Assembly: GCF_033568475.1 (NCBI RefSeq)
Contig: NC_133121.1
Coordinates: 192,474,664 to 192,538,663 of the forward strand
Reading direction: 5' to 3'
Length of the DNA: 64,000 bases
Source: Henckelia pumila
Taxonomy: Eukaryota > Streptophyta > Magnoliopsida > Lamiales > Gesneriaceae
The notes beneath the pieces were generated by a model that saw nothing but the letters and a program-made list of their open reading frames with translations, had not been told where the DNA came from and made no database searches. Positions 15,346 through 62,277 of the stretch are shown piece by piece. Made by a program: the position numbers and the translations under genes. How positions within the stretch are numbered: position 1 is the stretch's first letter; each line of letters starts with the position of its first letter.

Positions 15346-15706
15346 TGTAATGCACCGGGCCCTCACCCTCTGCTCTGGAGGTGCAAGGTTCTATCCATGG
15401 GGAGGGCAAAAACTCTCCTTTCCAGGTGGGGAGAAAACCATGAGTATGGGTCTGGACCGCCCAGAGCAGAAGGCCAGATGAGCCAGAAGCAGAGGGTGAG
15501 GGCCCAGCCCATTACATAAAAAAGCTCAAGTGATACCAGGGATGATAAAAACTTGTACTTATGCCTGAAGGTGCAAGGTTCTATCCCCGAAAAGGGCAAA
15601 AACTCCCCTTTTCAGGTGGGGAGAAAACCATTAGTATGGGCCTGGGCCGCTCAGAGCAGAAGGTCAGATGAGCCAGAAGCAGAGGGTGAGGGCCCAGTCC
15701 ATTACA
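15346..15706 (+). mobile_element. Composite SINE-like insert with inverted ends, in element A pol
   Basis: The insert starts TGTAATGCACC and ends GGTCCATTACA-like (CAGTCCATTACA), flanked by TCTAG on the left and TCTGG on the right; the uninterrupted family sequence predicts TCTGG. Left to right it holds an inverted stub of about 30 bases, a first unit lacking its 5' part (15376-15516), then a fuller unit (15522-15706) of the same orientation. Each unit has GGTTCTATCC, a near match to the pol III B box. The second begins AAGCTCAAGTGATACC, a weakened A-box region. It is related to the insert at 60258-61391. Confidence 0.7.
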
Positions 15707-21739: not shown

Positions 21740-23218
21740 TGACGTGTCTATATTTTCTTATGTTTAATTGGAATAGTTTGTTATAATTCGATGCATTTTG
21801 AATGATAAATTTGGTTGTATAGCTCATAATCATTGTCTTTGATTTAATATAGGAATATAGGAGAAAAGATGATAAAAAGGAAGTTTAGAGCAGCTGCGTT
21901 TGTGAGATTATGGATGAAGAATGGAAAGGAAGCTGCTGCGCGATAGCGCATGTAATCAGCGCAAGCAGCGCTGTTGGGGAGTGCTAATGTTGGGGAGTGC
22001 TAACGCGCATGGAAAGAATTGGTTTGCACATGATTTGGTTGAAGAGCACTTGAAGTGTCTGTGCGTGTAGAAATTTAAAGCAGATTTTGGCCGCTCGATC
22101 CGCAGACTTCTACCGATCGAGCGGTTCCAAGAAATTGAAGAACAGTAGGGGTCAAGATTTTAGCTCGCTCGATTGGTCAATATTTACCGATCGAGCGCAC
22201 CAGCGTGCAGAGTTTTTAATTTTGGAAATTCTTTGGTCGAGTTAGGATTAATCTTTGGAAGATTTGGAGACTTTAAATACTGATATAACTCAAAAATTAG
22301 GGGGATTGATCAGACTTAGACGACATGGAACGTGAGAAACACATTGGCGGCTAGGTTTCTTCTCTATTTTCTTAGATTCAATTTTTCTTTCATTAAATTT
22401 TCTGTAGAATTCATGAATATTGTTGGCTAAGTTTTAGAACTTGATTGAGGAAGACAAGCTCTTGATTTTGTTTATTCATGAGATTCAAATTTTTCAATGT
22501 TTAATTTTTATTGAGTATCAAAAGTTGTTCTGTTTTATTTCATGCTTGTATGTGAGATTTTTGGATTGGCCATCTTAGGATTTCGCTATACAATCTAATG
22601 CTAAATTAGAATTCAAATCCGTAATTGTTTGAATCAACTAATTTGCGAAGCAACTGTGTTTAATATTTTCCGCTGGTGAATTTGTTAAATCGTAGGAACA
22701 ACAATTTACTAGATTAAATACAATCGCTGGTATTTGTGTTGCCTAGATTCGTCAGTTTTACTCATTTTAATGCTACCTTAAATTTAAATCTAGATTGCTG
22801 GTATCCGGGTTGATTTATTGGTAAGGGTTAATCTAGAACGCTGGTGTCTAATTAACTAAGATTAAGGTGAAACATGAATTTAATTTTCAATAATGAATAT
22901 TCGATAGAATTAATTATTTTTAGGCAATCAATGATTGAATGAATAAATATCAAGGGTGTAGTCGACCGATACCAAAGCTTGTTTCTCATTGATTTCTTCG
23001 TTATAATTTAATCTTGAATGATAGTTGATCGAAATCCATTAAATATTGCTTTTAAATTTTTAGTAGTTAATTCCAAACTCAAAAACCCCTTTTTATTTCA
23101 TTTTAGAACACATTAAATTTCCCTTTCCTCGTGGGAACGATCCCTACTCATACTACTACGTATTTTGTTTATCTGATTGAGTCGGGTAATTTGGGCATGA
23201 CACGATCAAGCGCTACCA
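21740..23218 (+). repeat. 5' LTR of element B
   Basis: It starts TGACGTGTCTA (the 3' copy has TGATGTGTCTA) and ends GCGCTACCA, 1479 bp. The 3' LTR is the same length once its insert is removed. It carries two CGATCGAGCG palindrome pairs. The last 850 bases or so match the LTRs of element C in reverse, whereas the first part does not. Confidence 0.9.
22091..22197. repeat. Two imperfect palindromes with CGATCGAGCG arms in LTR of B
   Basis: First pair 22091-22124 (CCGCTCGATCC...ACCGATCGAGCGG), second 22166-22197. Each has arms of about 10 bases around a 10-12 base centre and could form a hairpin. Copies occur in the 3' LTR at 60011-60044 and 60086-60117. Confidence 0.85.
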
Positions 23219-37733: not shown

Positions 37734-39828
37734 GATCACTTTCGACCGGTGATCAATAATCATTATTCTGGGATAGCTCGGCAGAACATCACGGCAAATA
37801 ATTTTGAGTTGAAGCCAGCTCTGATTAATATGTTGCAGCAGAATCAGTTCAGGGGTGCAGCTACTGAAGATCCAAATCTGCATCTGCGTACTTTTCTGGA
37901 GATTGCTGACATAGTGAAGATTCATGGTCTTACTGAGGACACCATCAGACTACGATTGTTCCCGTTCTCTCTTAGGGACAATGCTCGTAGTTGGTTGCAG
38001 TCACTACCTCTTGGGAGTATCACTACATGGGAAGACATGGAATCCAAATTTCTGGCTAAGTACTTTCCTCCTGCCAAGTCTGCCCAGCTGAAAATTGAGA
38101 TCACTACTTTCAAACAGCAAGATTATGAGTTACTGTATGAAGCTTGGGAGCGGTACAAGGAATTGCTTAGGAAATGCCTGAACCATAATTTTCCGGACTG
38201 GGAACAGATTGAGTTATTCTACAATGGTTTGAATGGCCCAACGAGGATTTCTGTGGATGCTGCAGCTGGAGGTTCAATATTTTCTAAATTTCCTGAACAG
38301 GCTTATGAGATGCTTGAGCAAATGACTGTTAACAGTTATCAGTGGCCGAGTGAGAGATCTGCGATAAGGAATCCTGCTCGAATTCAAGAGGTTGATGCGT
38401 TCACTGCTTTGAATGCTCAGATGACTACTATTTCTACACAGTTGGCTGCACTGACCAAAGGCAATCAAGTTTCTATTAAGACAGCATCGCTGGCGACTGC
38501 CGTAAATTCTGCTGATGGATTTGAGAGTGTGGAGCAAGCTCAATATGTGAACAACAGAAATTACAACAACTATCGAGGTAATTCTGTACCCAATCAATAT
38601 CATCCTAGTTTGCGTAATCATGAGAATTTTTCATATGCAAATAATAATAATGTGTTGAATCCTCCTCCGGGATACAATACAAATAAGGGTGAGGGTAAGC
38701 CTCCTTTGGAGGATGTTGATGGTGAGGATTGAGACTCGCCTTGACAGCTTAGAGACGCATGTGGCCAACATGGGTGCTGTATTGCAATCCATGGAGACTA
38801 GCATTGGGCAGTTAGCGAATGCACTGAAAGATAATAACAGAGGCCAATTCCCAAGTAATACTGAGGTGAATCCCAAGGAGCATTGTAATGCTATCACGTT
38901 GAGGAGTGGGAAGCAGGTGGATAATGAAGAGGGCAAATCTGAGAGCAAGGCGTATGAAAAAGTTTCAGTTGACGAGAAGAAGGTCGAGGAGAAAGAGTCT
39001 GAACCTGAGCAGAAAGCGATGTACAAACCTCCTCTTCCATACCCCCAAAGGTTCAAAAAGAAGGCAGTGGACGAGCAGTTCTCAAAATTCTTGGAGATTT
39101 TCAAGAAAAAACATATCAACATCCCTTTTGCTGATGTTTTGGCACAAATGCCAAATTATGCGAAGTTTATTAAAGAGGTGATGTCCAAGAAAAGGAGACT
39201 GCAAGAGAATGAGGTGGTGAGCTTAACTAAAGAATGTAGTGCTGTGCTTCAAAAGAAGATGCCACAAAAGCTGAAAGATCCACGGTGTTTTACTATTCCT
39301 TGCACTATTGGTTCTTTTTATTTTAATAATGCACTTTGCGATCTAGGAGCTAGCATTAATCTGATGCCTTTGTCGGTTTTCAGGAGCTTAGGACTTGGCG
39401 AGGTGAATCCCACAATGATCGCATTGCAGCTAGCTGATAGATCTATCACATATCCGCTTGGAATCATTGAAGATGTTTTGGTAAAAATAGATAAATTTAT
39501 TTTTCCGACGAATTTTGTTGTGCTAGATATGGAGGAGGATGCAAATATGCCACTGATATTAGGGAGACCTTTCTTGGCCACTGCTGATGCCAAGATTGAG
39601 GTGAAGAATGGTGAGTTGTCGATGGGTGTGGACGGAGAAAAAGTTATTTTTAACATATTCAAGAAATCAAGTAATCCACTCATCTTGGAATTATGCATGA
39701 TTGAGCGATTTGTGAAGCTGGATGACCATCCCAAACTTGTTCATGAGGTAGATTCAAAGAAGAATGATCGAAGGTGCCAAAGAAAAATAAGAAAACGAAG
39801 AAGAAATCAAAGTTTAAAAGGTTGTTGA

Positions 39829-41142
39829 ATATATTTGGAGGGTGAAAGCGAAAGGGAAGACCCTCAACAAAGCGGAACCGGGCTAGAATTGGAATACAGT
39901 CGGGCTATGGACTATAAACTAAGCGCTTCTTGGGAGGCAACCCAAGCTAGTTTTTATGCGTTTTTTATTTTTTTTTAGTTGTTTTTGTTTTTATTTTTAT
40001 CATGAGAAATCTAGACATTAATAATGATTTTTTGAATTGTGTAGGTGAAAAATTATGGAGCTGAAAGAGTTTAGGAGCCACCCCTGAGAAGAGTTTTGAG
40101 TGTGCCGAGTACTGACGCTTGGTGCCTAAGGTATGTATCTCTTGTTTTTAATGAATACTGTACATTGAGGACAATGCACAATTTAAGTTTGGGGGGATGT
40201 TTAAAATTTGTGAAAATTTGAAATTTTTTATGAGTTAGTTGGAGTTAAAGGCATGATGTTGTAATTGTGTTGGCCTATGATGAAAATAATTTTTTTTTTC
40301 GCTAAAAAAGTTCATGTTAGCTATATTTAATCTTGAGTTCTCACATTTATGCACGAATGCCATGATTTTCGATACTCCTAAGAATTAGAGAAAAATTATG
40401 TGGATTTGTAATGTGGATTAGAGGAATTGATTCTTAACTCTTGTGATTTTTGCTTGAAACTGAGATAGATTTTTATGAACACAGAAGTGATTTAGGCATT
40501 TTTTTTCGAATCTATGGAGCTTTTTTTTAGCCATTTTATATTCATAAAAAATCCAAAACAAATTGAGTAGCTAAAAAGTTCAAAGAAAAGTAATGGTGGA
40601 GAAAGTAAGGTGAGGGGAGGCCTTGAAAAAAAAATGGATTGAAATTCTAGTCCAAATACAAGGCATAAAAATGGAGATGTATGGAGTAGAAGAAAGCCAA
40701 GACTAATGTCTGGCAATGCAAATAAAAAAAATTTAGCTACTCATAATCCTGCGCAAATTGAAAATATTCAATTTCCTTTGCTTTGAATTCGGAGTCCTTG
40801 TTTACATTGATATACATATGGATGCTTATCTCCTGCCGATTATACTTGAGAATAATGTTAACCGAAAAAGTCCTGTTGATCTGTGTGAGTAAAAGTTGAA
40901 CTTGGTTGAGTGTATTTTGAAACTTGAGGGCGGAGTTAATGATTTTATGAAGCTTACGGTTTGCATGATTTTACCGAAAGTTAGGTGGGTAGAGGAGATT
41001 GGCAAATCACACACACACGAGAACTCTTGAGAAAATTAGCCGACATGTGCATTGAATCTTGGAATGTATAAATTCGGAGGTCGACTTTATTGCTCATTAT
41101 TATTTTTCTCGGGACTAGCAAAAGTCTACGTTTGGGGGAATT
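39829..41142 (+). other. Unit 1 3' noncoding region with two conserved hairpins and polypurine tract
   Basis: No sense-strand coding frame. Stem 1 TTGGGAGGCAACCCAA is at 39930-39945; stem 2 CATTGAGGACAATG at 40163-40176 is followed by AAGTTTGGGGGG (40194-40205), a purine-rich tract. The final polypurine tract TTTGGGGGAA lies directly before LTR2 (about 41131-41140). Confidence 0.85.
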
Positions 41143-42599
41143 TGATAAGTGCATTTTATGCTCTTAATTTATATATGATTTGACTTGGCTTTTGTTATGT
41201 ATGGAGTGAATTTTATGCGTGTTAGTTGTTGTTTTTGTGAGATGCAAGGAATGACGCAAAAGTAGAGAGAAGAAGCGGAAAGCCGAATTACGGGACAGCA
41301 AACTTCAAAAAATTACTGGGAATGTTACAGACATCCAAATCCGATCTCCACTGTTCAAATTGAAGTTTAGGATGTCTTAAAGTTTCTGTCAAAATTTCAG
41401 CTTGATCCGACGGCTAGAACTTTATTTTGATTTTTTCAAGAATGCTGTGCGAGTTGGATGCACTGAAGCGAACCCGTGCCCGAAACCGGCGCACCCGCAC
41501 CCTGTAGCTTTTATTTTGAGAAAATTATCGGCGATCTGCGCCCCTGCACCCTAGGACAGCGCACCCGCGCCCTAGAACCCAAAAACGCGGCGCACATGCG
41601 CCCGAGGGTGGTGCACCCGTGCCTGACGTGTCTTATTTTCGGAAACTTTTAGTCTCAAACTTTAAAAGGACTATTTGGCATATATCAGAGGAGAATCGAG
41701 GGTTTTCATCAGTTTTTGAAGGCTAGAGACGGCTAGAGACCAAGGAAAATGGAGAAGAAGCATTCTTGGCACGAAGACGGACAAAGCGACTACCGGAGAC
41801 AGAGAAGCATCATCTACCTTCGTTTTTATTTCATTTTTTCTCCTAATTTTTGAATGATGTTCAAGAACATGATTTGTTTGATTATTATTTTCATTATGAA
41901 CTAATTCCATTGTCTAGAGGGACGACGTAGCTTGACTTGAAACCATGTTTTTGATATTTTGATTGATATATTAGAATTATTCATTCGGTTTATTTGTGTT
42001 TTCCTGAATTGATTGCGTTCAATTTACTGGCCATAGATTGAATGATATTATATTTAAAATCTATCACTCGAGAGAGGAGATTTTGAATACGACATAGGAA
42101 AATACATATTTGGTGTTTATATTGTTCTAAAGACATATAACTCCATAGAAGTCATTAGAAGAATTCTTGTGTTATTTACCAGATTTAATAGTTGAACTTA
42201 GATAGACATATTGAGTTTGCTATTGAATACGAATTTCTTCTTGACACTCGAGAGAGGTAGTAGAAAATAATAGGAATTCTTGGCTAATAAACTAGAAAAA
42301 ATTATAATTGAACAATAATTAGAAATAAATTGTGGTGGACAGTCAAGTGAAGTCGAACCTCTAGCATTCATCGCTTATTGATTTTTTCTCTCGTGAACTC
42401 GTGGTTATTTAGTTTTGTTTCTTGAAAATTTTAGTTTCATAAAATCAAACCATTTTCGTAGCTCTACATAGGATTAGGATTTGATTAGTCGCAAATATTT
42501 ATTATAATATAATTTATTCATTCTTCGTGGGATCGACTTGGACTTAATTCCTATATTATAACTTGACATCGTACGCTTGCAAGCAAAAAACGCGCAACA
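41143..42599 (+). repeat. LTR2 of array E
   Basis: Starts TGATAAGTGC, ends CGCGCAACA, 1457 bp. Acts as 3' LTR of unit 1 and 5' LTR of unit 2. GC-rich short repeats at about 41465-41625. Confidence 0.92.
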
Positions 42600-42605
42600 A
42601 GTTTT

Positions 42606-42623
42606 TGGCGCCGTTGCCGGGGA
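42606..42623 (+). other. Primer-binding site of unit 2 (tRNA-Asp)
   Basis: TGGCGCCGTTGCCGGGGA, perfect, six bases after LTR2. Confidence 0.92.
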
Positions 42624-42728
42624 TTGAATTTTTTTTGATTTATATTAAATTGTGCTAATTATTCTTAATTTTGATTTAGAGAATTTTATTTTATTTTGTT
42701 GGTTCTAATTTAGAAAATTTTCCTGTCT

Positions 42729-45080
42729 ATGCAGTTTATGCAAAAAAGCCAAAGTTACGACTCACTACTCTTTGATCCGGAAATCGAGAAAACTACTAAA
42801 GCTTTGCGAAAATCTAGAAGAGAAGAGTTGCAACAAATGGCTGAAGAAAGAGAAAGAAAACGAGTTGTCAATAATGCTCCGGTGCCAATCAGAGATCACT
42901 TTCGATCGATGATCAATAATCATTATTCTGGGATAGCTCGGTAGAACATCACGGCAAATAATTTCGAGTTGAAGCCAGATCTGATTAATATGGTGCAGCA
43001 TAATCAGTTCAGGGGTGCAGCTACTGAAGATCCAAATCTGCATCTGCGTACTTTTCTGGAGATTGCTGACACAATGAAGATTCATGGTCTTACTGAGGAC
43101 ACCATCAAACTACGATTGTTCCCGTTCTCTCTTAGGTACAATGCTCGTAGTTGGTTGCAGTCACTACCTCTTGGGAGTATCACTACATGGGAAGACATGG
43201 AATCCAAATTTCTGGCTAAGTACTTTCCTCATGCCAAGTCTGCCCAGCTGAAAATTGAGATCACTACTTTCAAACAGCAAGATTATGAGTTACTGTATGA
43301 AGCTTGGGAGCGGTACAAGGAATTGCTTAGGAAATTCCTGAACCATAATTTTTCGGACTGGGAACAGATTGAGTTATTCTAAAATGGTTTGAATGGCCCA
43401 ACGAGGATTTCTGTGGATGCTGCAGCTGGAGGTTCAATATTTTTTAAATTTCCTAAACAGGCTTATGAGATGCTTGAGCAAATGACTGTTAACAGTTATC
43501 AGTGGCCGAGTGAGAGATCTGCGATAAGGAAGCCTGCTCGAATTCATGAGGTTGATGCGTTCACTGCTTTGAATGCTCAGATGACTACTATTTCTATACA
43601 ATTGGCTGCACTGACCAAAGACAATCAAGTTTCTATTAAGACAGCATCACTGGCGACTGCCGTAAATTCTGCTGATGGATTTGAGAGTGTGGAGCAAGCT
43701 CAATATGTGAACAACATAAATTACAACAACTATCGAGGTAATCTTGTACCCAATCAATATCATCCTAGTTTGCGTAATCATGAGAATTTTTCATATGCAA
43801 ATAATAATAATGTGTTGAATCCTCCTCCGGGATACAATACAAATAAGGGTGAGGGTAAGCCTCCTTTGGAGGATGTTGTTAATGATTTTGTGCAGGAATC
43901 GAGCAAGAGGATGGTGAGGACTGAGACTCTCCTTGACAGCTTAGAGACGCATGTGGCCAACATGGGGTCTGTATTGCAATCCATGGAGACTAGCATTGGG
44001 CAGTTGGCAAACGCACTGAAAGATAATAACAGAGGCCAATTCCCAAGTAATACTGAGGTGAATCCCAAGGAGCATTGTAATGCTATCACATTGAGGAGTG
44101 GGAAGCAGGTGGATAATGAAGAGGGCAAATCTGAGAGCAAGGCGTCCGAAAAAGTTGCAGTTGACGAGAAGAAGGTCGAGGAGAAAGAGTCCGAACCTGA
44201 GTAGAAATCGATGTACAAACCTCCTCTTCTATACCCCCAAAGGTTCAAAAAGAAGGCAGTGGACGAGCAGTTCTCAAAATTCTTAGAGATTTTCAAGAAA
44301 ATACATATCAACATCCCTTTTGCTGATGCTTTGGCACAAATGCCAAATTATGCGAAGTTTATTAAAGAGGTGATGTCCAAGAAAAGTAGACTACAAGAGA
44401 ATGAGGTGGTGAGCTTAACTAAAGAATGTAGTGTTGTGCTTCAAATGAAGATGCCACAAAAACTGAAAGATCCAGGGAGTTTTACTATTCCTTGCACTAT
44501 TGGTTCTTCTTATTTTAATAATTTACTTTGCGATCTAGGAGCTAGCATTAATCTGATGCCTTTTTCTATTTTCAGGAGCTTAGGACTTGGCGAGGTGAAG
44601 CCCACAATGATCTCATTGCAGCTAGCTGATAGATCTATCACATATCCGCTTGGAATCATTAAAGATGTTTTGGTAAAAATAGATAAATTTATTTTTCCGA
44701 CGGATTTTGTTGTGCTAGATATGGAGGAGGATGCAAATATGCCACTGATATTGGGGAGACATTTCTTGGCCACTGCTGATGCCAAGATTGAGGTGAAGAA
44801 TGGTGAGTTGTCGATGGGTGTGGAAGGAGAAAGAGTTATTTTTAACATATTCAAGAAATCAAGTAATCCACTCATCGAAGAATTATGCATGATTGAGCGA
44901 GTTGTGAAACTGGATGGCCATCCCAAACTTTTTAATGAGGTATATTCAAAGAAGAATGATCCAAAGGTGCCAAAGAAAAAGAAGAAAACGAAGAAGAAAT
45001 CAAAGTTTAAAAAGGTTGTTGAATATATTTGGAGGGTGAAAGCGAAAGGGAAGACCCTCAAAAAAGCGGAACCGGGCTAG
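42729..45080 (+). pseudogene. Unit 2 gag-protease of array E, three stop codons
   Basis: Full-length counterpart without large insertions. Stops at 42942-42944 (CAG to TAG), 43379-43381 (TAC to TAA) and 44202-44204 (CAG to TAG); otherwise one frame throughout, so three point mutations inactivate it. It retains the gag domain (42969-43382), the central glutamine/asparagine-rich linker, the conserved TLRSGKQ motif, the protease DLGASINLMP (about 44540) and the LGR-FL box (first P of PFL changed to H). The Lys-rich tail ends at 45080. No CCHC knuckle and no polymerase. Confidence 0.88.
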
Positions 45081-46344
45081 AATTGGAATACAATTGGGCT
45101 ATGGACTATAAACTAAACGCTTCTTGGGAGGCAACCCAAGCTAGTTTTTATGCGTTTTTTATTTTCTTTTAGTTATTTTTGTTTTTATTTTTATCATGAG
45201 GAATCTAGACATTAATAATGATTTTTTGAATTGTGTAGGTGAAAAATTATGGAGCTGAAAGAGTTTAGGAGCCACCCCTGAGAAGAGTTTTGAGTGATTA
45301 AGATGGTGCCGAGTACTGACGCTTGGTGCCTAAGGTATGTGTTCCTTGTTTTTAATGAATACTGTACATTGAGGACAATGCACAATTTATGTTTGGGGGG
45401 ATGTTTAAAATTTGTGAAAATTTGAAATTTTTTATGAGTTACTTGGAGTTAAAGGCATGATGTTGTAATTGTGATGGCCTATGATGAAAATAAATTTTTT
45501 TTCGCTAAAAAAGTTCATGTTAGCTATATTTAATCTTGAGTTCTCACATTTATGCACGAATGCCATGATTTTTGATACTCCTAAGAATTAGAGAAAAATT
45601 ATATGGATTTGTGATGTGGATTAGAGGAATTGATTTTTAACTCTTATGAATTTTGCTTGAAACTGAGATAGATTTTTATGAACACAGAAGTGATTTAGGC
45701 ATTTTTTTCGAATCTATTGAGCTTTTTTTAGCCATTTTATATTCATGAAAAATCAAAAACAAATTGAGTAGCTAAAAATTTCAAAGAAAAGTAATGGTGG
45801 AGAAAGTAAGGTGAGGGGAGGCCTTGAAATAAAAAATGGATTGAAATTCTAGTCCAAATACAAGGCAGAAAAATTGAGATGTATGGAGTAGAAGAAAGCC
45901 AAGACTAATGTCTGGCAATGCAAATAAAAAAATTTTAGCTACTCATAATCCTGCACAAATTGAAAATATTCAATTCCCTTTGCTTTGAATTCTGAGTCCT
46001 TGTTTACATTGATATACATATGGATTCTTATCTCCTGCCGATTATACTTGAGAATAATGTTAACCGAAAAAGTCCTGTTGATCTGTGTGAGTAAAAGTTG
46101 AACTTGGTTGAGAGTATTTTGAAACTTGAGGGCGGAGTTAATGATTTTATGAAGCTTACGGATTGCATGATTTTATCGAAAGTTAGGTGGGTAGAGGAGA
46201 TTGGCAAATCAAACATACACGAGAACTCTTGAGAAAATTAGCCGACATGTGCATTGAATCTTGGAATGTATAAATTCGGAGGTCGACTATATTGCTCATT
46301 ATTATTTTGCTCGGGACTAGCAAAAGTCTAAGTTTGGGGGAATT
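45081..46344 (+). other. Unit 2 3' noncoding region with conserved hairpins
   Basis: Stem 1 at 45124-45139 and stem 2 at 45367-45380, both identical to unit 1. The polypurine tract TTTGGGGGAA directly precedes LTR3. Confidence 0.85.
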
Positions 46345-47790
46345 TGATAAGTGCATTTTATGCACTTAATTTATATATGATTTGACTTGGCTTTTATTAT
46401 GTATGGAGTGGATTTTATGCGTGTTAGTTGTTGTTTTTGTGAGATGCAAGGAATGATGCAAAAGTAGAGAGAAGAAGCAGAAAGCCGAATTACGGGACAG
46501 CAAACTTCAGAAAATTACTGGGAATGTTACATACATCCAAATCCAATCTCCATCGTTCAAACTGAAGTTTAAGTTGCTGTCAAAATTTCAGCTTGATCCG
46601 ACGGCTAGAACTCAATTTTGATTTTTTCTTAAATGCTGCGCGATTTGGATGCGCTGAAGCGCACCTGCGCCCGAAACCGGCGCACCCGCGCCCTGTAGCT
46701 TTTATTTTGAGAAAATTATCGGCGATCAGCGCCCCTGCACCCTAGGATAGCGCACCCGCGCCCTGGAACCCAAAAACGTGGTGCACCTACGCCCGAGGGT
46801 GGCGCACCCGCGCCTGACGTATCTTATTTTCGAAAACTTTTAGTCTCAAACTTTAAAAAGACTATTTGGAATATATCAGAGGAGAATCGAGGGTTTTCAT
46901 CAGTTTTTGAAGGCTAGAGACGGCTAGAGACCAAGGAAAAGGGTGAAGAAGCATTCTTGGCACGAAGACGGACGAAGCGACTACCGAAGATGGAGAAACA
47001 TCATCTACCTTTGTTTTTATTTCATTCTTTCTCCTAATTTTTGAATGATGTTCAAGAACATGATTTTTTTGATTTTTATTTTCATTATGAACTAATTCCA
47101 TTGTCTAGAGGGACGACGTAGCTTGACTTGAAACCATGTTTTTTATATTTTGATTGATATATTAGAATTATTCATTCGGTTTATTTGTGTTTTCCTGAAT
47201 TGATTGCGTTCAATTTACTGGCCATAGATTGAATGATATTTTATTTAGAATCTATCACTCGAGAGAGGAGATTTTGAATACGACATAGGAAAATACATAT
47301 TTGGTGTTTATATTGTTCGAAAGTCATATAACTCCATAGAAGTCATTAGAAAAATTCTTGTGTTATTTACCGGATTTAATAGTTGAACTTAGATAGACAT
47401 ATTGAGTTTGTTATTGAATACGAATTTCTTCTAGACACTCGAGAGAGGTAGTAAAAAATAATAGGAATTCTTGGATAATAAACTAGAAGAAATTATAATT
47501 GAACAATCATTAGAAATAAATTGTGGTGGACAGTCAAGTGAAGTCGAACCTCTAGCATTCATCGCTTATTGATTTTTTCTCTCGTGAACTCGTGGTTATT
47601 TAGTTTTGTTTCTTGAAAATTTTAGTTTTATAAAATCAAACCATTTTCGTAGCTCTACATAGGATTAGGATTTGATTAGTCGCAAATATTTATTATAATA
47701 TCATTTATTCATTCTCCGTGGGATCGACTTGGACTTAATTCCTATATTATAACTTGACATCGTGCGCTTGCGAGCGAAAAACATGCAACA
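46345..47790 (+). repeat. LTR3 of array E
   Basis: Starts TGATAAGTGC, ends CATGCAACA, 1446 bp. 3' LTR of unit 2 and 5' LTR of unit 3. GC-rich short repeats at about 46660-46815. Confidence 0.92.
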
Positions 47791-47796
47791 AGTTTT

Positions 47797-47814
47797 TGGC
47801 GCCGTTGCCCGGGA
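47797..47814 (+). other. Primer-binding site of unit 3 (tRNA-Asp, one mismatch)
   Basis: TGGCGCCGTTGCCCGGGA; one G-to-C change from the other two units. Confidence 0.88.
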
Positions 47815-47919
47815 TTGAATTTTATTTGATTTATATTAAATTGTGCTAATTAGTCTTAATTTTGATTTAGAGCATTTTATTTTATTTTGTTGGTTCTAAT
47901 TTAAAAAATTTTCCTGTCT

Positions 47920-50183
47920 ATGCAGTTTATGCGAAAAAGCCGAAGTTACGACTCACTGCTCTTTGATCCGGAAATCGAGAAAACTGCTAAAGCTTTGCGA
48001 AAAGCTAGAAGAGAAGAGTTGCAACAAATGGCTGAAGAAAGAGAAAGAGAACGAGTTATCAATAATGATCCGGTGCCTTTCAGAGATCACTTTCGACCGG
48101 TGATCAATAATCATTATTCTTGGATAGCTCGGCAGAACATCACGGAAAATAATTTTGAGTTGAAGCCAACTCTGATTAATATGGTGCAGCAGAATCAGTT
48201 CAGGGGTTCAGCTACTGAAGATCCAAATATGCATCTGCGTACTTTTTTGGAGATTGCTGACACAGTGAAGATTCATGGTCTTACTGAGGACACCATCAGA
48301 CTACGATTGTTCCCGTTCTTTCTTAGGGACAATGCTCGTAGTTGGTTGCAGTCACTACCTCTTGGGAGTATCACTACATGGGAAGACATGGAATCCAAAT
48401 TTCTGGCTAAGTACTTTCCTCCTGCCAAGTCTGCCCAGCTGAAAATTGAGATCAATACTTTCAAACAGCAAGATTATGAGTTACTGTTTGAAGCTTGGGA
48501 GCGGTACAAGGAATTGCTTAGGAAATTCCGGAACCATAATTTTCCGGACTGGGAACAGATTGAGTTATTCTACAATGGTTTGAATGGCCCAACGAGGATT
48601 TCTGTGGATGCTGCAGCTGGAGGTTCAATATTTTCTAAATTTCCTGAACAGGCTTATGAGATGCTTGAGCAAATGACTGTTAACAGTTATCAGTGGCCGA
48701 GTGAGAGATCTGCGATAAGGAAGCCTGCTGGAATTCATGAGGTTGATGCGTTCAATGCTTTGACTGCTCAGATGGCTATTATTTCTACACAGTTGGCTGC
48801 ACTGACCCAAGGCAATCAAGTTTCTATTAAGACAGCATCGCTGGCGACTGCCGTAAATTCTGCTGATGGATTTGAGAGTGTGGAGCAAGCTCAATATCTG
48901 AACAACAGAAATTACAACAACTATCAAGGTAATCCTGTACCCAATAAATATCATCCTAGTTTGCGTAATCATGAGAATTTTTCATATGCAAATAATAATA
49001 ATGTGTTGAATCCTCCTTTGGGATACAATACAAATAAGGGTGAGGGTAAGACTCCTTTGGAGGATGTTGTTAATGCTTTTGTGCAGGAATCGAGCAAGAG
49101 GATGGTGAGGACTGAAACTCTCCTTGACAGCTTAGAGATGCAAGTGGCCAACATGGGTGCTGTATTTCAATCCATGGAGACTAGCATTGGGCAGTTGGCG
49201 AACGCACTGAAAGATAATAACAGAGGCCAATTTCCAAGTAATACTGAGGTGAATCCCAAGGAACATTGTAATGCTATCACGTTGAGGAGTGGAAAGCAGG
49301 TGGATAATGAAGAGGGCAAATCTGAGAGCAAGGCATCTGAAAAGTTGCAGTTGACGAGAAGAAGGTCGAGGAGAAAGAGTCCGAACCTGAGCAGAAACCG
49401 ATGTACAAACCTCCTATTCCATACCCCCAAAGGTTCAAAAAGAAGGTAGTGGACGAGCAGTTCTCAAAATTCTTGGAGATTTTCAAGAAAATACATATCA
49501 ACATCCCTTTTGCTGATGCTTTGGAACAAATGCCAAATTATGCGAAGTTTATTAAAAAGGTGATGTCCAAGAAAAGGAGACTGCAAGAGAATGAGGTGGT
49601 GAGCTTAACTAAAGAATGTAGTGCTGCGCTCCAAAAGAAGATGCCACAAAAGCTGAAAGACCCAGGGATTTTTACTATTCCTTGCACTATTGGTTCTTCT
49701 TAATTTAATAATGCACTTTGCGATCTAGGAGCTTAGGACTTGGCGAGGTGAAGCCCACAATGATCGCATTGCAGCTAGCTGATAGATCTATAACATATCC
49801 GCTTGGAATCATTGAAGATGTTTTGGTAAAAATAGATAAATTTATTTTTCCGAAAAATTTTGTTGTGCTAGATATGGAGGAGGATGCAAATATGTCACTG
49901 ATATTGATGAGACCTTTCTTGGCCACTGCTGATGTCAAGATTGAGGTGAAGAATGGTGAGTTGTCGATGGGTGTGGACGGAGAAAGAGTTATATTTAACA
50001 TATTCAAGTATTCCACTCATCGAGGAATTATGCATGATTGAGCGAGTTGTGAAACTGGATGGCCATCCCAAACTTGTTCATGAGGTAGATTCAAAGAAGA
50101 ATAATCTGAAGGTGCCAAAGAAAAATAAGAAAACGAAGAAGAAATCAAAGTTTAAAAAGGTTTTTAAAATATTTGGAGGGTGA
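47920..50183 (+). pseudogene. Unit 3 gag-protease of array E, protease active site deleted
   Basis: The longest intact gag here: one frame of 509 codons from 47920. A single-base loss near 49340 throws it out of frame to a stop at 49449, and the protease side resumes in the frame at 49401. A TAT-to-TAA stop at about 49701 and a 37-bp deletion at about 49730, between two copies of AGGAGCT, remove the catalytic DLGA loop. The LGRPFL box is also altered (LMRPFL, about 49905). The unit is therefore protease-null whatever its frame. Confidence 0.9.
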
Positions 50184-51490
50184 AAGCGAAAGGGAAGACC
50201 CTCAACAAAGCGGAACCGGGCTAGAATTGGAATACAATCGGGCTATGGACTATAAACTAAGCGCTTCTTGGGAGGCAACCCAAGCTAGTTTTTATGCGTT
50301 TTTTATTTTCTTTTAGTTGTTTTTGTTTTTATTTTTATCATGAGGAATCTAGACATTAATAATGATTTTTTGAATTGTGTAGGTGAAAAATTATGGAGCT
50401 GAAAGAGTTTAGGAGCCACCCCTGAGAAGAGTTTTGAGTGATTAAGATGGTGCCGCGTAGTGACGCTTGGTGCCTAAGGTATGTGTCTCTTGTTTTTAAT
50501 GAATATTGTACATTGAGGACAATGCACAATTTATGTTTGGGGGGATGTTTAAAATTTGTGAAAATTTGAAATTTTTTATGAATTAGTTCGAGTTAAAGGC
50601 ATGATGTTGTAATTGTGTTGGCCTATGATGAAAATAAATTTTTTTTCGCTAAAAAAGTTCATGTTAGCTATATTTAATCTTGAGTTCTCACATTTATGCA
50701 CGAATGCCATGATTTTCGATACTCCTAAGAATTAGAGAAAAATTATGTGGATTTGTGATGTGGATTAGAGGAATTGATTCTTAACTCTTGTGATTTTTGC
50801 TTGAAACTGAGATAGATTTTTATGAACACAGAAGTGATTTAGGCATTTTTTTTCGAATCTATTGAGCTTTTTTTAGCCATTTTATATTCATGAAAAATCC
50901 AAAACAAATTGAGTAGCTAAAAAGTTCAAAGAAAAGTAATGGTGGAGAAAGTAAGGTGAGGGGAGGCCTTGAAAAAAAAAATGGATTAAAATTCTAGTCC
51001 AAATACAAGGCATAAAAATGGAGATGTATGGAGTAGAAGAAAGCCAAGACTAATGTCTGAAAATGCAAATAAAAAAAATTTTAGCTACTCGTAATCTTGC
51101 ACAAATTGAAAATATTCAATTCCCTTTGCTTTGAATTCTGAGTCCTTTTTTACATTGATATACATATGGATGCTTATCTCCTACCGATTATACTTGAGAA
51201 TAATGTTAACCGAAAAAGTCCTGTTGATCTGTGTGAGTAAAAGTTGAACTTGGTTGAGAGTATTTTGAAACTTGAGGGCGGAGTTAATGATTTTATGAAG
51301 CTTACGGATTGCATGATTTTACCAAAATTTAGGTGGGTACAGGAGATTGGCAAATCACACACACACGAGAACTCTTGAGAAAATTAGCCGACATGTGCAT
51401 TGAATCTTGGAATGTATAAATTCGGAGGTCGACTATATTGCTCATTATTATTTTGCTCGGAACTAGCAAAAGTCTAAGTTTGGGGGAATT
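50184..51490 (+). other. Unit 3 3' noncoding region with conserved hairpins
   Basis: Stem 1 at 50268-50283 and stem 2 at 50511-50524, same sequence as units 1 and 2. Polypurine tract TTTGGGGGAA just before LTR4. Confidence 0.85.
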
Positions 51491-52941
51491 TGATAAGTGC
51501 ATTTTATGCACTTAATTTATATATGATTTGACTTTGATTTTGTTATGTATGGAGTGGATTTTATGCGTGTTAGTTGTTGTTTTTGTGAGATGCAAGGAAT
51601 GACGCAAAAGTAGAGAGAAGAAGCGAAAAGCCGAATTACGGGATAGCAAACTTCAGAAAATTACTGGGAATGTTACGGACATCCAAATCCGATCTCCACC
51701 GTTCAAATTGAATTTTAGGATGTTTTAAAGTTGCTGTCAAAATTTCAGCTTGATCCGACGGCTATAACTCAATTTTGATTTTTTCAAGAATTCTGCGTGA
51801 GTTGGATGCGCTGAAGCGCACCCGCGCCCAAAACCGGCGCACCCGCGCCCTGTAGCTTTTATTTTGAGAAAATTATTGGCGATCAGTGCCCCTGAACCCT
51901 AGGACAGCACACCCGCGCCCTGGAACCCAAAAACGCGGCGCACCTGCGCCCGAGGGTGGCGCACCCGCGCCTGACGTGTCTTATTTTCGGAAACTTTTAG
52001 TCTCAAACTTTAAAAGGACGCTTTGGCATATATCAGAGGAGAATCGAGGGTTTTCATCAGTTTTTGAAGGCTAGAGACGGCATGAGACCAAGGAAAAGGG
52101 ATAAGAAGCATTCTTGGCACGAAGACGGACGAAGCGACTACCGAAGACGAAGAAGCATCATCTACCTTCATTTTTATTTTATTGTTTCTCCTAATTTTTA
52201 ATGATGTTCAAGAACATACTTTGTTTGATTTTTATTTTCATTATGAACTAATTCCTTTGTCTAGAGGGACGACGTAGCTTGACTTGAAACCATGTTTTTG
52301 ATATTTTGATTGATATATTAGAATTATTCATTCAGTTTATTTGTGTTTTCCTGAATTGATTGCGTTCAATTTACTTGCCATAGATTGAATGATATTTTAT
52401 TTAGAATCTATCACTTGAGAGAGGAGATTTTGAATACGACATAGGAAAATAAATATTTGGTGTTTATATTGTTCGAAAGACATATAACTCCATAGAAGTC
52501 ATTAGAAGAATTCTTGTGTTATTTACCGGATTTAATAGTTGAACTTAGATAGACATATTGAGTTTGCTATTGAATACGAATTTCTTCTTGACACTCGAGA
52601 GAGGTAGTAGAAAATAATAGGAATTCTTGGCTAATAAACTAGAAGAAATTATAATTGAACAATCATTAGAAATAAATTGTGGTGGACAGTCAAGTGAAGT
52701 CGAACCTCTAGCATTCATCGCTTATTGATTTTTTCTCTCGTGAAGGTTATTTAGTTTTGTTTCTTGAAAATTTTAGTTTTATAAAATCAAACCATTTTCG
52801 TAGCTCTACATAGGATTAGGATTTGATTAGTCGCAAATATTTATTATAATATCATTTATTCATTCTCAGTGGGATCGACTTGGAATTAATTCCTATATTA
52901 TAACTTGACATCGTGCGCTTGCAAGCGAAAAACACGTAACA
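51491..52941 (+). repeat. LTR4 of array E
   Basis: Starts TGATAAGTGC, ends CACGTAACA, 1451 bp. Its last bases match LTR1 rather than LTR2 or LTR3. It has a small private deletion near 52744. The GACGT duplication follows. Confidence 0.92.
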
Positions 52942-59659: not shown

Positions 59660-62277
59660 TGATGTGTCTATATTTTCTTATGTTTAATTGGAATAGTTTG
59701 TTATAATTCGATGCATTTTGAATGATAAATTTGGTTTTATAGCTCCTAATCATTGTCTTTGATTTAATATAGGAATAGAGGAGAAAAGATGATAAAGAGG
59801 AAGTTTAGAGCAGCTGTGTTTGTGATATTATGGATAAAGAATGGAAAGGAAGCTGCTGCGCGATAGCGCATGTAATCAACGCAAGCAGCGCTGTTGGGGA
59901 GTGCTAATGTTGGGGAGTGCAAACGCGCATGGAAAGAATTGGTTTGCGCATGATTTGGTTGAAAAGAACTTGAAGTGTCTGTGCGTGCAGAAATTTAAAG
60001 CAGAGTTTGGCCGCTCGATCCGCAGACTTCTACCGATCGAGCGGTTCCAAGAAATTGAAGAACAGTAGGGGTCAAGATTTTAGCTCGCTCGATCGGTCAA
60101 TCTTTACCGATCGAGCGACGCCAGCGTGCAGAGTTTTTAATTTTGGAAATTCTTTGGCCGAGTTAGGATTAATCTTTGGAAGATTTGGAGACTTTAAATA
60201 CTGATATAACTCAAAAATTAGGGGGATTGATCAGACTTAGACGACTTGGAACGTGAGTGTAACAACCCACGTCCTTCCACCGCATCCCTCCCCAGCCCGC
60301 AGCATGGGCTCGGACCACATGGTTCGACGGGCATTGCACTCATGACGTCCCCACTCCTGGAAGTGGGTTTTTGTCCTCCCCACGGATAGAACCTTGCACC
60401 TCCATGCTTAAGTTCAAGTTCTTATCATCCCTGGTACCAATTGATCTATTTTATGTAACGACCCACGTCATTCCACCGCATCCCTCCCCAGCCTATAGCA
60501 TGGGCTCGGACCGCATGGTTCGACGGGCATCGCACTCATGACCTCCCCACTCCTGGCAGTGGGTTTTTGCCCTCCCCAGGGATAGAACCTTGCACCTCTA
60601 GGCTTAAGTACAAGTTCTTATCATCCCTGGTACCAATTGAGCTATCCCTCCCTAGCCTATAGCATGGGCTCGGACCGCATGGTTCGACGGACATCGCACT
60701 CATAACCTCCCCACTCCTGGCAGTGGGTTTTTGCCCTCCCTAGGGATAGAACCTTGCACTTCCAGGCTTAAGTACAAGTTCTTATCATCCCTGGTACCAA
60801 TTAAGCTAGCTAACCATGCGGTCCGAGCCCATGCTATAGGCTGGGGAGGGATGCGGTGGAAGGACGTGGGTCGTTACATAAAAGGGCGCCCTTTTTTGTA
60901 ATGACCCACGTCCTTCCACCGCATCCTTTGCCAGCCCGTAGCATAGGATCGGACCGCATGGTTTGACGGACATCGCACTCATGACCTCCCCACTCTTGGC
61001 AGTGGGTTTTTTCCCTCCCCAGGGATAGAACCTTGCACCTCCAGGCTTAAGTACAAGTTCTTATCATCCCTGGTACCAATTGAGCTAGGGATGCGGTGGA
61101 AGGACGTGGGTCGTTACAAAAAAAAGGGCGCCTTTTTTTGTAACGATTCACGTCCTTCCACCGCATCCCTCCCCAGCCCGTAGCATGGGCTCGGACCGCA
61201 TGGTTCGACGGGCATCGCACTCATGACCTCCCCACTCCTGGCAGTGAGTGTTTGCCCTCCCTAGGGATAGAACCTTGCACCTCCAGGCTTAAGTACAAGT
61301 TCTTATCATCCCTGGTACCAATTGAGCCATGCGGTCCGAGCCCATGCTACGGTCTGGGGAGGGATGCGGTGGAAGTACGTGGGTCGTTACAGTGAGAAAC
61401 ACATTGGCGGCTAGGTTTCTTCTCTCTTTTCTTAGATTCAATTTTTCTTTCATTAAATTTTCTATAGAATTCATGAATATTGTTGGCTAAGTTTTAGAAC
61501 TTGGTTGAGGAAGACAAGCCCTTGATTTTGTTTATTCATGAGATTCGAATTTTTCAATATTTAATTTTTATTGAGTATCAAAAGTTGTTCTTTTTTATTT
61601 CATACTTGTATGTGAGATTTTCGGATTGGCCATCTTAGGATTTCGCCATACAATCTAATGCTAAATTAAAATTCAAATCCGTAATTGTTTGAATCAACTA
61701 ATTTGCGAAGCAACTGCGTTTAATATTTTCCGCTGGAGAATTTGTTAAATCGTAGGAACAACAATTGACTAGATTAAATACAATCGCTGGTATTTGTGTT
61801 GTCTAGATTCGTCAGTTTTACTCATTTGAATGATACCTTAAATTTAAATCTAGATCGCTGGTATCCGGGTTGATTTATTAGTAAGGGTTAATCTAGAATG
61901 CTGATGTCTAATTAACTAAGATTAAGGTGAAACGGGAATTTAATTTTCAATGATGAATATTCGATAGAATTAATTATTTTTAGGCAATCAATGATTGAAT
62001 AAATAAATATCAAGGGTGTAGTCGACCGATATCAAGGCTTGTTTCTCATTGATTTCTTCGTTATAACTTAATCTTGCATGATAGTTGATAGAAATCCATT
62101 AAATATTGCTTTTAAATTTTTAGTAGTTAATTACAAACTCAAAAACCCCATTTTCTTTCATTTTAGAACACATTAAATTTATCTTTACTCGTGGGAACGA
62201 TCCCTACTCACACTACTACGTATTTTGTTTATCTGATTGAGTATGGTAATTTGAGCGTGACATATTAAGCGCTACCA
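59660..62277 (+). repeat. 3' LTR of element B, interrupted
   Basis: Starts TGATGTGTCTA, ends GCGCTACCA. It is 2618 bp, of which 1134 bp is the composite insert at 60258-61391; the remainder equals the 5' LTR in length. Few differences from the 5' LTR are visible. Confidence 0.92.
60258..61391 (-). mobile_element. Composite SINE-like insert: five units and three inverted stubs, in B 3' LTR
   Basis: The whole insert runs TGTAAC...GTTACA with about 65-bp inverted ends and the perfect 5-bp duplication GTGAG (60253-60257 and 61392-61396). Units of about 190 bp start at 60258, 60454, 60646 (5' cut), 60897 and 61139, all in one direction. Inverted stubs of the unit end lie at 60814-60878, 61088-61118 and 61328-61391. 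Read on the minus strand, each unit starts near TAGCTCAATTGG, a full match to the pol III A-box consensus TRGYNNARNNGG. GGTTCTATCC follows about 44 bases later, one mismatch from a B box. This is a tRNA-like SINE promoter. No protein is encoded. Confidence 0.8.

Follow-up and report, generated by a model that had tools for sequence, protein, structure and literature searches.

What kind of event placed a block of tRNA-like repeats, alternating with inverted stubs of their own ends, between two copies of GTGAG in the genome of Henckelia pumila? The block lies near the end of the window (the whole stretch of 64,000 nucleotides that was analysed), which is plant DNA and contains several reading frames resembling those of retrotransposons; one gag-like protein of the window has its best matches in Primulina and Henckelia. 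The sequence and a repeat search revealed five bodies of about 190 bp in the same direction, three inverted stubs and two spacers (Table 1), and the composite block with TG...CA ends and a perfect GTGAG duplication, as described in the first-pass annotation, was confirmed. The block starts with TGTAACAACC, which is the 3′ end of body 1 read on the plus strand, and ends with GGTCGTTACA; GTGAG abuts it on both sides. Its outer inverted ends extend over 68 nt with 91% complementarity, and the pol III-like boxes of its bodies are read on the minus strand. The window has 130 TGTAA/TTACA pairs at spacings of 60–2000 bp, and this GTGAG is the one exact 5-bp duplication among them. A second, diverged element follows the same plan, in the order short inverted arm, 5′-truncated body, TAAAAAA and body, with flanks differing by one mismatch (TCTAG/TCTGG).

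Table 1. Positions of the block, its parts and related features in the window
Feature	Position	Strand	Remarks
Second, diverged element	15346..15706	+	ends TGTAATG...CATTACA
Paralogous host copy lacking the block (empty site)	21740..23218	+	GTGAG once, at 22332-22336
Left copy of 5-bp target duplication	60253..60257	.	GTGAG
Whole composite block	60258-61391		1134 bp; TG...CA ends
Body 1	60258..60448	-	left TG end of insertion; tRNA-like A/B boxes on minus strand
Body 2	60454..60644	-	opens inverted unit U1
Body 3	60644..60808	-	without 3′-terminal 26 nt
Short inverted arm (stub) of U1	60812..60878	+	
Palindromic link	60879..60896	.	TAAAAGGGCGCCCTTTTT
Body 4	60897..61087	-	unit U2
Short inverted arm of U2	61087..61118	+	
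Near-palindromic link	61119..61138	.	AAAAAAAGGGCGCCTTTTTT
Body 5	61139..61327	-	unit U3
Short inverted arm of U3	61324..61391	+	right CA end of insertion
Right copy of target duplication	61392..61396	.	GTGAG

Some other features of the window were recorded. A gag-containing stretch of about 5.2 kb is present in nearly three tandem copies with about 95% identity (38718-52941). Three matches to snoR71 above the Rfam gathering score were found on the minus strand (38086-38191, 43246-43351 and 48437-48542), antisense within this repeated gag-like region, which may be due to chance or to a captured snoRNA. Short hairpins of the type GCTCGATC...GATCGAGC lie beside the block (60012-60043 and 60086-60117), and similar ones adjoin a body in the right flank of locus L035.

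The way in which the block arrived can be read from the empty site. Positions 21740-22336 are 96.5% identical to the left flank of the block and 22332-23218 are 95% identical to the right flank, and the insert is absent between them. Since the empty site has a single GTGAG, the whole composite must have entered as one unit, with duplication of exactly 5 bp.

To place this insertion among its relatives, the genome was searched with one body as query, which gave at least 110 matches (with 40 of 657 candidates scored), and with a 24-base end motif, which gave 237 matches at no more than one mismatch (100 of them listed, loci obtained for 30) and none with the reversed control. The window and the loci from both searches made up 69 distinct clusters, a non-random sample, of which 28 were two-ended under a deliberately loose rule and 41 were not. 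The two-ended share is biased upward, as 10 of 33 further listed clusters were fetched for having motif matches on both sides; 2 of these 10 have an exact target duplication (TSD). The element found no match in viral and prokaryote contigs searched with one exact 27-letter pattern, or in plasmids and phages searched by blastn.

An exact 5-bp duplication flanks 12 of the 28 two-ended clusters (L005, L020, L027, L033, L040, L043, L060, L061, L064=L003, L082, L083 and the window block), and four more differ by one mismatch (L026, L056, L069 and the second window element). Shuffling the right flanks 20,000 times gave means of 0.67 exact and 1.68 one-mismatch duplications, with maxima of 5 and 7. 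No duplication of 6–9 bp was found among the 28, and 12 of them show no TSD within one mismatch. The set includes chance ends (L049, L059, probably L015 and L042) and arrays that continue into a link or tail (L018=L011, L052, L074 and L081). Two long insertions with one-mismatch flanks, L024 and L038, were split by the clustering rule, and L071 has one-mismatch flanks (CCAAG/CAAAG) at an outer GTTACA end which the two-ended rule missed. The flanks of L002 recur at a second place, L007/L057; the TSD count took in L002 and L057, L057 was left out of the joint, arm-divergence, breakpoint, promoter-box and free-5′-end counts, and L007 was also left out of the promoter-box and free-5′-end counts and of the comparison of near-full with short-arm divergence. 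The TSD-bearing two-ended insertions terminate in TG and CA (TA in L005). Relatives are thus abundant, and the A-tailed SINE ends named beforehand as evidence against an unusual element are absent from these insertions.

Some loci have further peculiarities. L043 (2011-2562) and L060 (1501-2102) each carry termini from two families, GTTACA-type and CATTACA-type, within one exact TSD. In L005, L012, L017, L019 and L033 the arrays or bodies are found within or next to host repeats that are related (about 66–75% alike), perhaps through insertion preference or through the mere abundance of these repeats. An unrelated repeat is common to L014, L017, L022, L032 and L039, within about 1 kb of the arrays, and in L017 it directly adjoins the array (TGTTGGAACACGG).

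The recurring unit had been read at first as a repeat plus a stub. Both parts are present, but judged by the sequence the unit is better parsed as an inverted dimer, in which two tRNA-like bodies lie head-in with their GTTACA ends outward and with a variable, off-centre deletion; sister families end in CATTACA instead. A lone inverted unit can be the entire insertion (L027, 289 bp; L082, 345 bp; L083, 201 bp). Complete dimers with breakpoints 1,1 account for seven of 64 inner junctions, five of the seven with GC between the arms, and those of L020 and L076 read exactly GAGCTAGCTAGCTC. The 64 junctions comprise 55 distinct breakpoint pairs. A neighbour within 3 nt was found for 38 of the 64 (all 19 near-full dimers and 19 of the 45 short-arm units), so that the breakpoints are in part dependent, through hot spots or shared descent. 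Bodies have 20 free 5′ ends in the sample; within the DNA retrieved, a TSD was found only for the insertions that hold those of L019, L021 and the two in L038.

Units are joined by a palindrome, (A/T)AAAAGGGCGCCCTTTT(A/T), or a diverged form of it, in all 33 joints in which both 3′ ends are complete; this count omits 24 same-direction joints and 14 opposed ones whose ends are incomplete. The link is 17–21 bp long, with one of 27 bp, and its core GGGCGCCC is exact in 20 of the 33. The exact link pattern occurs in 94 copies genome-wide (reversed control 0), and the outer ends of TSD-flanked insertions are without it. Units with different 3′ ends are connected at eight of the 33 joints. Among the first 50 of the 94 genomic links, a few of which are near neighbours and perhaps not independent, 19 join different end types, with 24 expected under independence (p 0.13); strict self-copying would predict near-zero mixed-end links.

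Divergence between arms was compared over the last 72 columns. Within a unit the two arms are 5.1% divergent (n=51), versus 6.2% for random partners, with only 8 of 2000 draws as low, and the value is 5.5% on average in near-full dimers (n=11) and 5.2% in short-arm units (n=41). For arms on opposite sides of a link the figure is 7.3% (n=28), equal to random (1239 of 2000 draws as low), and for other arm pairs within an insertion it is 7.0% (n=117). Because arms within a unit are closer than random, and cross-link arms and end types are about random, a single unit would tend to stem from one RNA, and the units within one chain appear to come from different RNAs. A stub made by self-copying of the 3′ end of an RNA across the link was ruled out: the stub of U1 fits body 2 (1 mismatch in 67) and not body 4 (8 in 67), and the random-like divergence across links also contradicts it.

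Further evidence on the integrating machinery comes from fusions. In three insertions (L011, L021 and L019) one exact 5-bp TSD encloses a TRIM-type LTR element together with the body or array fused to it. In L011 the array is followed by TAAAA, by TGGTATCAGAG, which we take to be a PBS for the initiator tRNA, by a TRIM interior and by an LTR ending in GGGGCATGACA, and the whole of 996 bp has TGAAC on both sides. In L021 the LTR of a TRIM starts with TGTGAGACCCC after ACAAC, and the end of a single body lies 808 bp on, followed by ACAAC; the flanks of L029 are those of L021, so that it is not independent. In L019 a TRIM-like far end, TGTAGCGTCCC, follows GTTTT, and a body end 1029 bp away is again followed by GTTTT, a TSD of low complexity. 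A scan for distant shared 5-mers gave 23 matches versus about seven expected by chance, of which 17 were A/T runs and some were duplicate places; of the six others, L011, L019 and L021 fall at LTR boundaries and L030, L039 and L059 do not. In L038 a whole TRIM lies between two arms, with both LTR termini joined to body 5′ ends and a one-mismatch TSD. TRIM sequence was found in L011, L012 and L038.

Bodies in L035 (1-1996) and L042 (2405-4396) abut the same LTR-like end (GGGATGTTACA and TGTAATGTCCC) at nearly the same base. The flanks of the two loci are 85% alike, and the two perhaps represent one chimeric element that moved. No second end or LTR partner of the L035 body was found within 7 kb.

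In the first-pass annotation, the composite was proposed to have moved as a whole, through an integrase-like process with 5-bp staggering, and the empty site, the 12 exact and four one-mismatch duplications, and the TSD-flanked LTR fusions all bear this out. Taken together, one-piece insertion with a 5-bp stagger, TG...CA ends, varying centres, a conserved link and co-integration with LTR elements are what the sequences show, and we infer from them transcription, priming, co-packaging in particles and a helper element. We consider it probable, with some confidence, that the block represents a single insertion of a non-autonomous retroelement lacking LTRs, whose pol III-type RNA would be reverse transcribed and whose cDNA would be integrated in trans by the enzymes of LTR retrotransposons, without LTRs, PBS or PPT of its own. 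Among 83 arms that reach the 5′ end, a simple motif match found an A-box in 56, a B-box in 60 and both in 41; ARAGORN called no tRNA in any of six loci or in the window.

The proposed cycle would begin with a body RNA of about 190 nt with a tRNA-like pol III promoter at its 5′ end and a 3′ end in ...GTTACA or CATTACA, followed by a self-complementary tail, (A/T)AAAAGGGCGCCCTTTT, which would also act as pol III terminator. Such an RNA would start just upstream of TAGCTCAAT and end in ...TTACA(T/A)AAAAGGGCGCCCUUUU. The tail palindrome is predicted by ViennaRNA to form a 16-bp RNA duplex (-27.3 kcal/mol) or a terminal hairpin. RNAs could pair through their tails or fold back, and in this way prime reverse transcription in LTR-retrotransposon particles; with tail priming the cDNA would start exactly at TG. 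The 3′ end of the cDNA, which in the longest copies is itself palindromic (TAGCTAGCT), would fold back on its own strand or join the end of another cDNA. This would leave an inverted unit whose two outer ends, TG and CA, are both competent for integrase. Such units would chain through the tail palindrome, and the integrase of an LTR retrotransposon would insert the chain with a 5-bp stagger. The inverted dimer would exist because a lone body has just one integrase-ready end; for a body without an inverted partner, a fused LTR element could supply the second one.

One possible reading, somewhat less likely than not, is a class of retroelement without LTRs, PBS and PPT that uses palindromes at its termini to build integrase-ready DNA for itself: the tail AAAAGGGCGCCCUUUU would pair RNAs and prime cDNA at TG, the cDNA 3′ end (TAGCTAGCT) would fold back or join, and concatemers of different RNAs would be integrated in trans. 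This reading is weakened because the palindromic sequence was found at only four of the 20 free 5′ ends. A further possibility, doubtful but to be taken seriously, keeps the same insertion by LTR integrase but has the inverted units arise when two independent cDNAs are resected and joined at their ends, instead of by snap-back or palindrome priming. It accounts for body 5′ ends that are joined to LTR ends as well (L010/L066, L019, L038, L035 and L042), for the 44 of 64 inner junctions that lie between 3 nt of overlap and 3 nt of insertion, and for some units whose arms differ as much as random copies; the greater average similarity of arms within a unit speaks against it, as do six of the 64 centres, which overlap by 8–18 nt as expected from fold-back on a self-complementary stretch. 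Because the excess of similarity within units over random partners is modest and the arms of U3 in the window differ at 5 of 66 positions, snap-back alone is insufficient for all units, and end joining of different cDNAs probably adds to their formation.

Other explanations were weighed as well. The units might be LTRs with a tRNA-like promoter, belonging to a Helenus/TRIMp3-type TRIM, with the links as very short internal regions and the arrays as tandem TRIMs or solo LTRs. The tRNA-like boxes, TG...CA ends, 5-bp TSD, small size and unit-wise integration of arrays are all known for TRIMs. The LTR pair of one element is identical at birth; here the bodies of one insertion are inverted and about as divergent from each other as random copies are, within insertions and across links, and the centres differ from unit to unit. 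No PPT-like run of 8 purines precedes TG in any of the 33 links, TGG lies near the start of one of the 33, and none of the loci fetched had a PBS and PPT between two direct LTRs that were nearly identical and contained bodies. The reading of the units as LTRs of a known miniature retrotransposon, raised at the outset as a possible refutation, is thus unlikely.

Still less likely is amplification by a transposase, with the element as a MITE or foldback DNA transposon containing a captured SINE; long terminal inverted repeats with short TSDs and the recurrence of some centres within 3 nt could be cited in favour of it. Copies of a MITE family share one internal structure, whereas the breakpoint pairs here are mostly distinct, and copying as one fixed DNA structure is disfavoured by this spread, despite the close neighbours of 19 of the 45 short-arm units. 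The fusions, moreover, end in LTR termini inside one TSD, and TG...CA with a 5-bp TSD fits an LTR integrase; no plant DNA transposon superfamily is known to have this combination. For the window block a retrozyme is not supported either: retrozymes carry a hammerhead ribozyme in their LTRs, and an Rfam scan of the window gave no hammerhead at the gathering score. Ordinary LINE-mobilised SINEs, nested and inverted by recombination and with a TSD from an unrelated element, are hardly credible in spite of the tRNA-like promoter part, the existence of single bodies and the TAAAA tails at internal joints, since in two-ended insertions a TSD of exactly 5 bp lies directly against the body 3′ ends, the empty site shows insertion as one block, and ten loci with single or leading bodies showed no SINE-type TSD, their direct repeats being 5–9 nt, none longer and none exactly flanking both body ends (the weak 6–9-nt matches TCATCT in L037 and GTTACAA in L035 included).

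SINEs are defined by their dependence on LINEs. In this one genome, at loci picked by similarity and in part for having two ends, the other class of retrotransposon appears to carry a SINE-like RNA, and to do so in the absence of the LTRs regarded as necessary. If true, this bears on the minimal needs of the reverse transcriptase and integrase of LTR retrotransposons, on the origin of TRIMp3 elements such as Helenus, and on the seeding of inverted-repeat loci as possible small-RNA sources; the palindromic tail gives specific, testable predictions. A literature search of a partial open library, covering titles and the starts of abstracts, turned up papers on TRIM, Cassandra and Helenus elements and found no description of an LTR-less, integrase-mobilised SINE.

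tRNA-derived plant SINEs have A and B boxes, a length of about 200 nt and differing 3′ parts on a shared 5′ part. The Henckelia element resembles them in its box-like motifs, its size and its 3′ parts that differ between families with one 5′ part; its outer ends, however, have neither an A-tail nor a long, variable TSD, but TG...CA and a 5-bp TSD. The label SINE given at first sight holds for the promoter-like part and fails for the ends and the insertion signature.

In TRIMp3 elements, namely Helenus, Ajax and Cassandra, the LTRs of a TRIM contain a promoter derived from a small RNA (Kojima 2024, PMC10886601). The same paper describes plant and fungal Helenus as having LTRs, PBS, PPT and a 5-bp TSD, and as non-coding, with tRNA-like pol III boxes and inferred mobilisation in trans by LTR retrotransposons; it names Selaginella as the only plant with a characterised Helenus. 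Like Helenus, the element is non-coding and has TG...CA ends, a 5-bp TSD and presumed mobilisation in trans, with motif matches to tRNA-like pol III boxes in part of its arms. Unlike Helenus, which has two direct LTRs around PBS and PPT, it has no LTR pairs, PBS or PPT, and its ends come from inverted copies. Because the defining features, paired direct near-identical LTRs and PBS/PPT, are absent in the loci examined, the element is set apart, and we file it, going by its sequence, as a putative variant among the trans-mobilised passengers of LTR retrotransposons, not as a Helenus.

Tandem TRIM arrays in maize, including an inverted pair, lie under one 5-bp TSD in the accessible part of PMC4717578, and Cassandra forms arrays and has a pol III promoter in that of PMC7215508. 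The Henckelia block shares with these the multi-unit array and, with the maize arrays, the single 5-bp TSD; it differs in that the arrays so described share LTRs between internal regions, whereas here inverted dimers with varying centres meet at palindromic joints of about 18 bp. In LTR-mediated retroposition, as set out in the available text of PMC5408686, a foreign RNA is joined to LTR-retrotransposon cDNA by template switching and inserted by integrase. The element would share with this process the association of a foreign RNA with LTR-retrotransposon cDNA and integrase, whereas its 12 exact-TSD two-ended insertions end in the TG and CA of the repeat itself (TA in L005), and not in LTRs.
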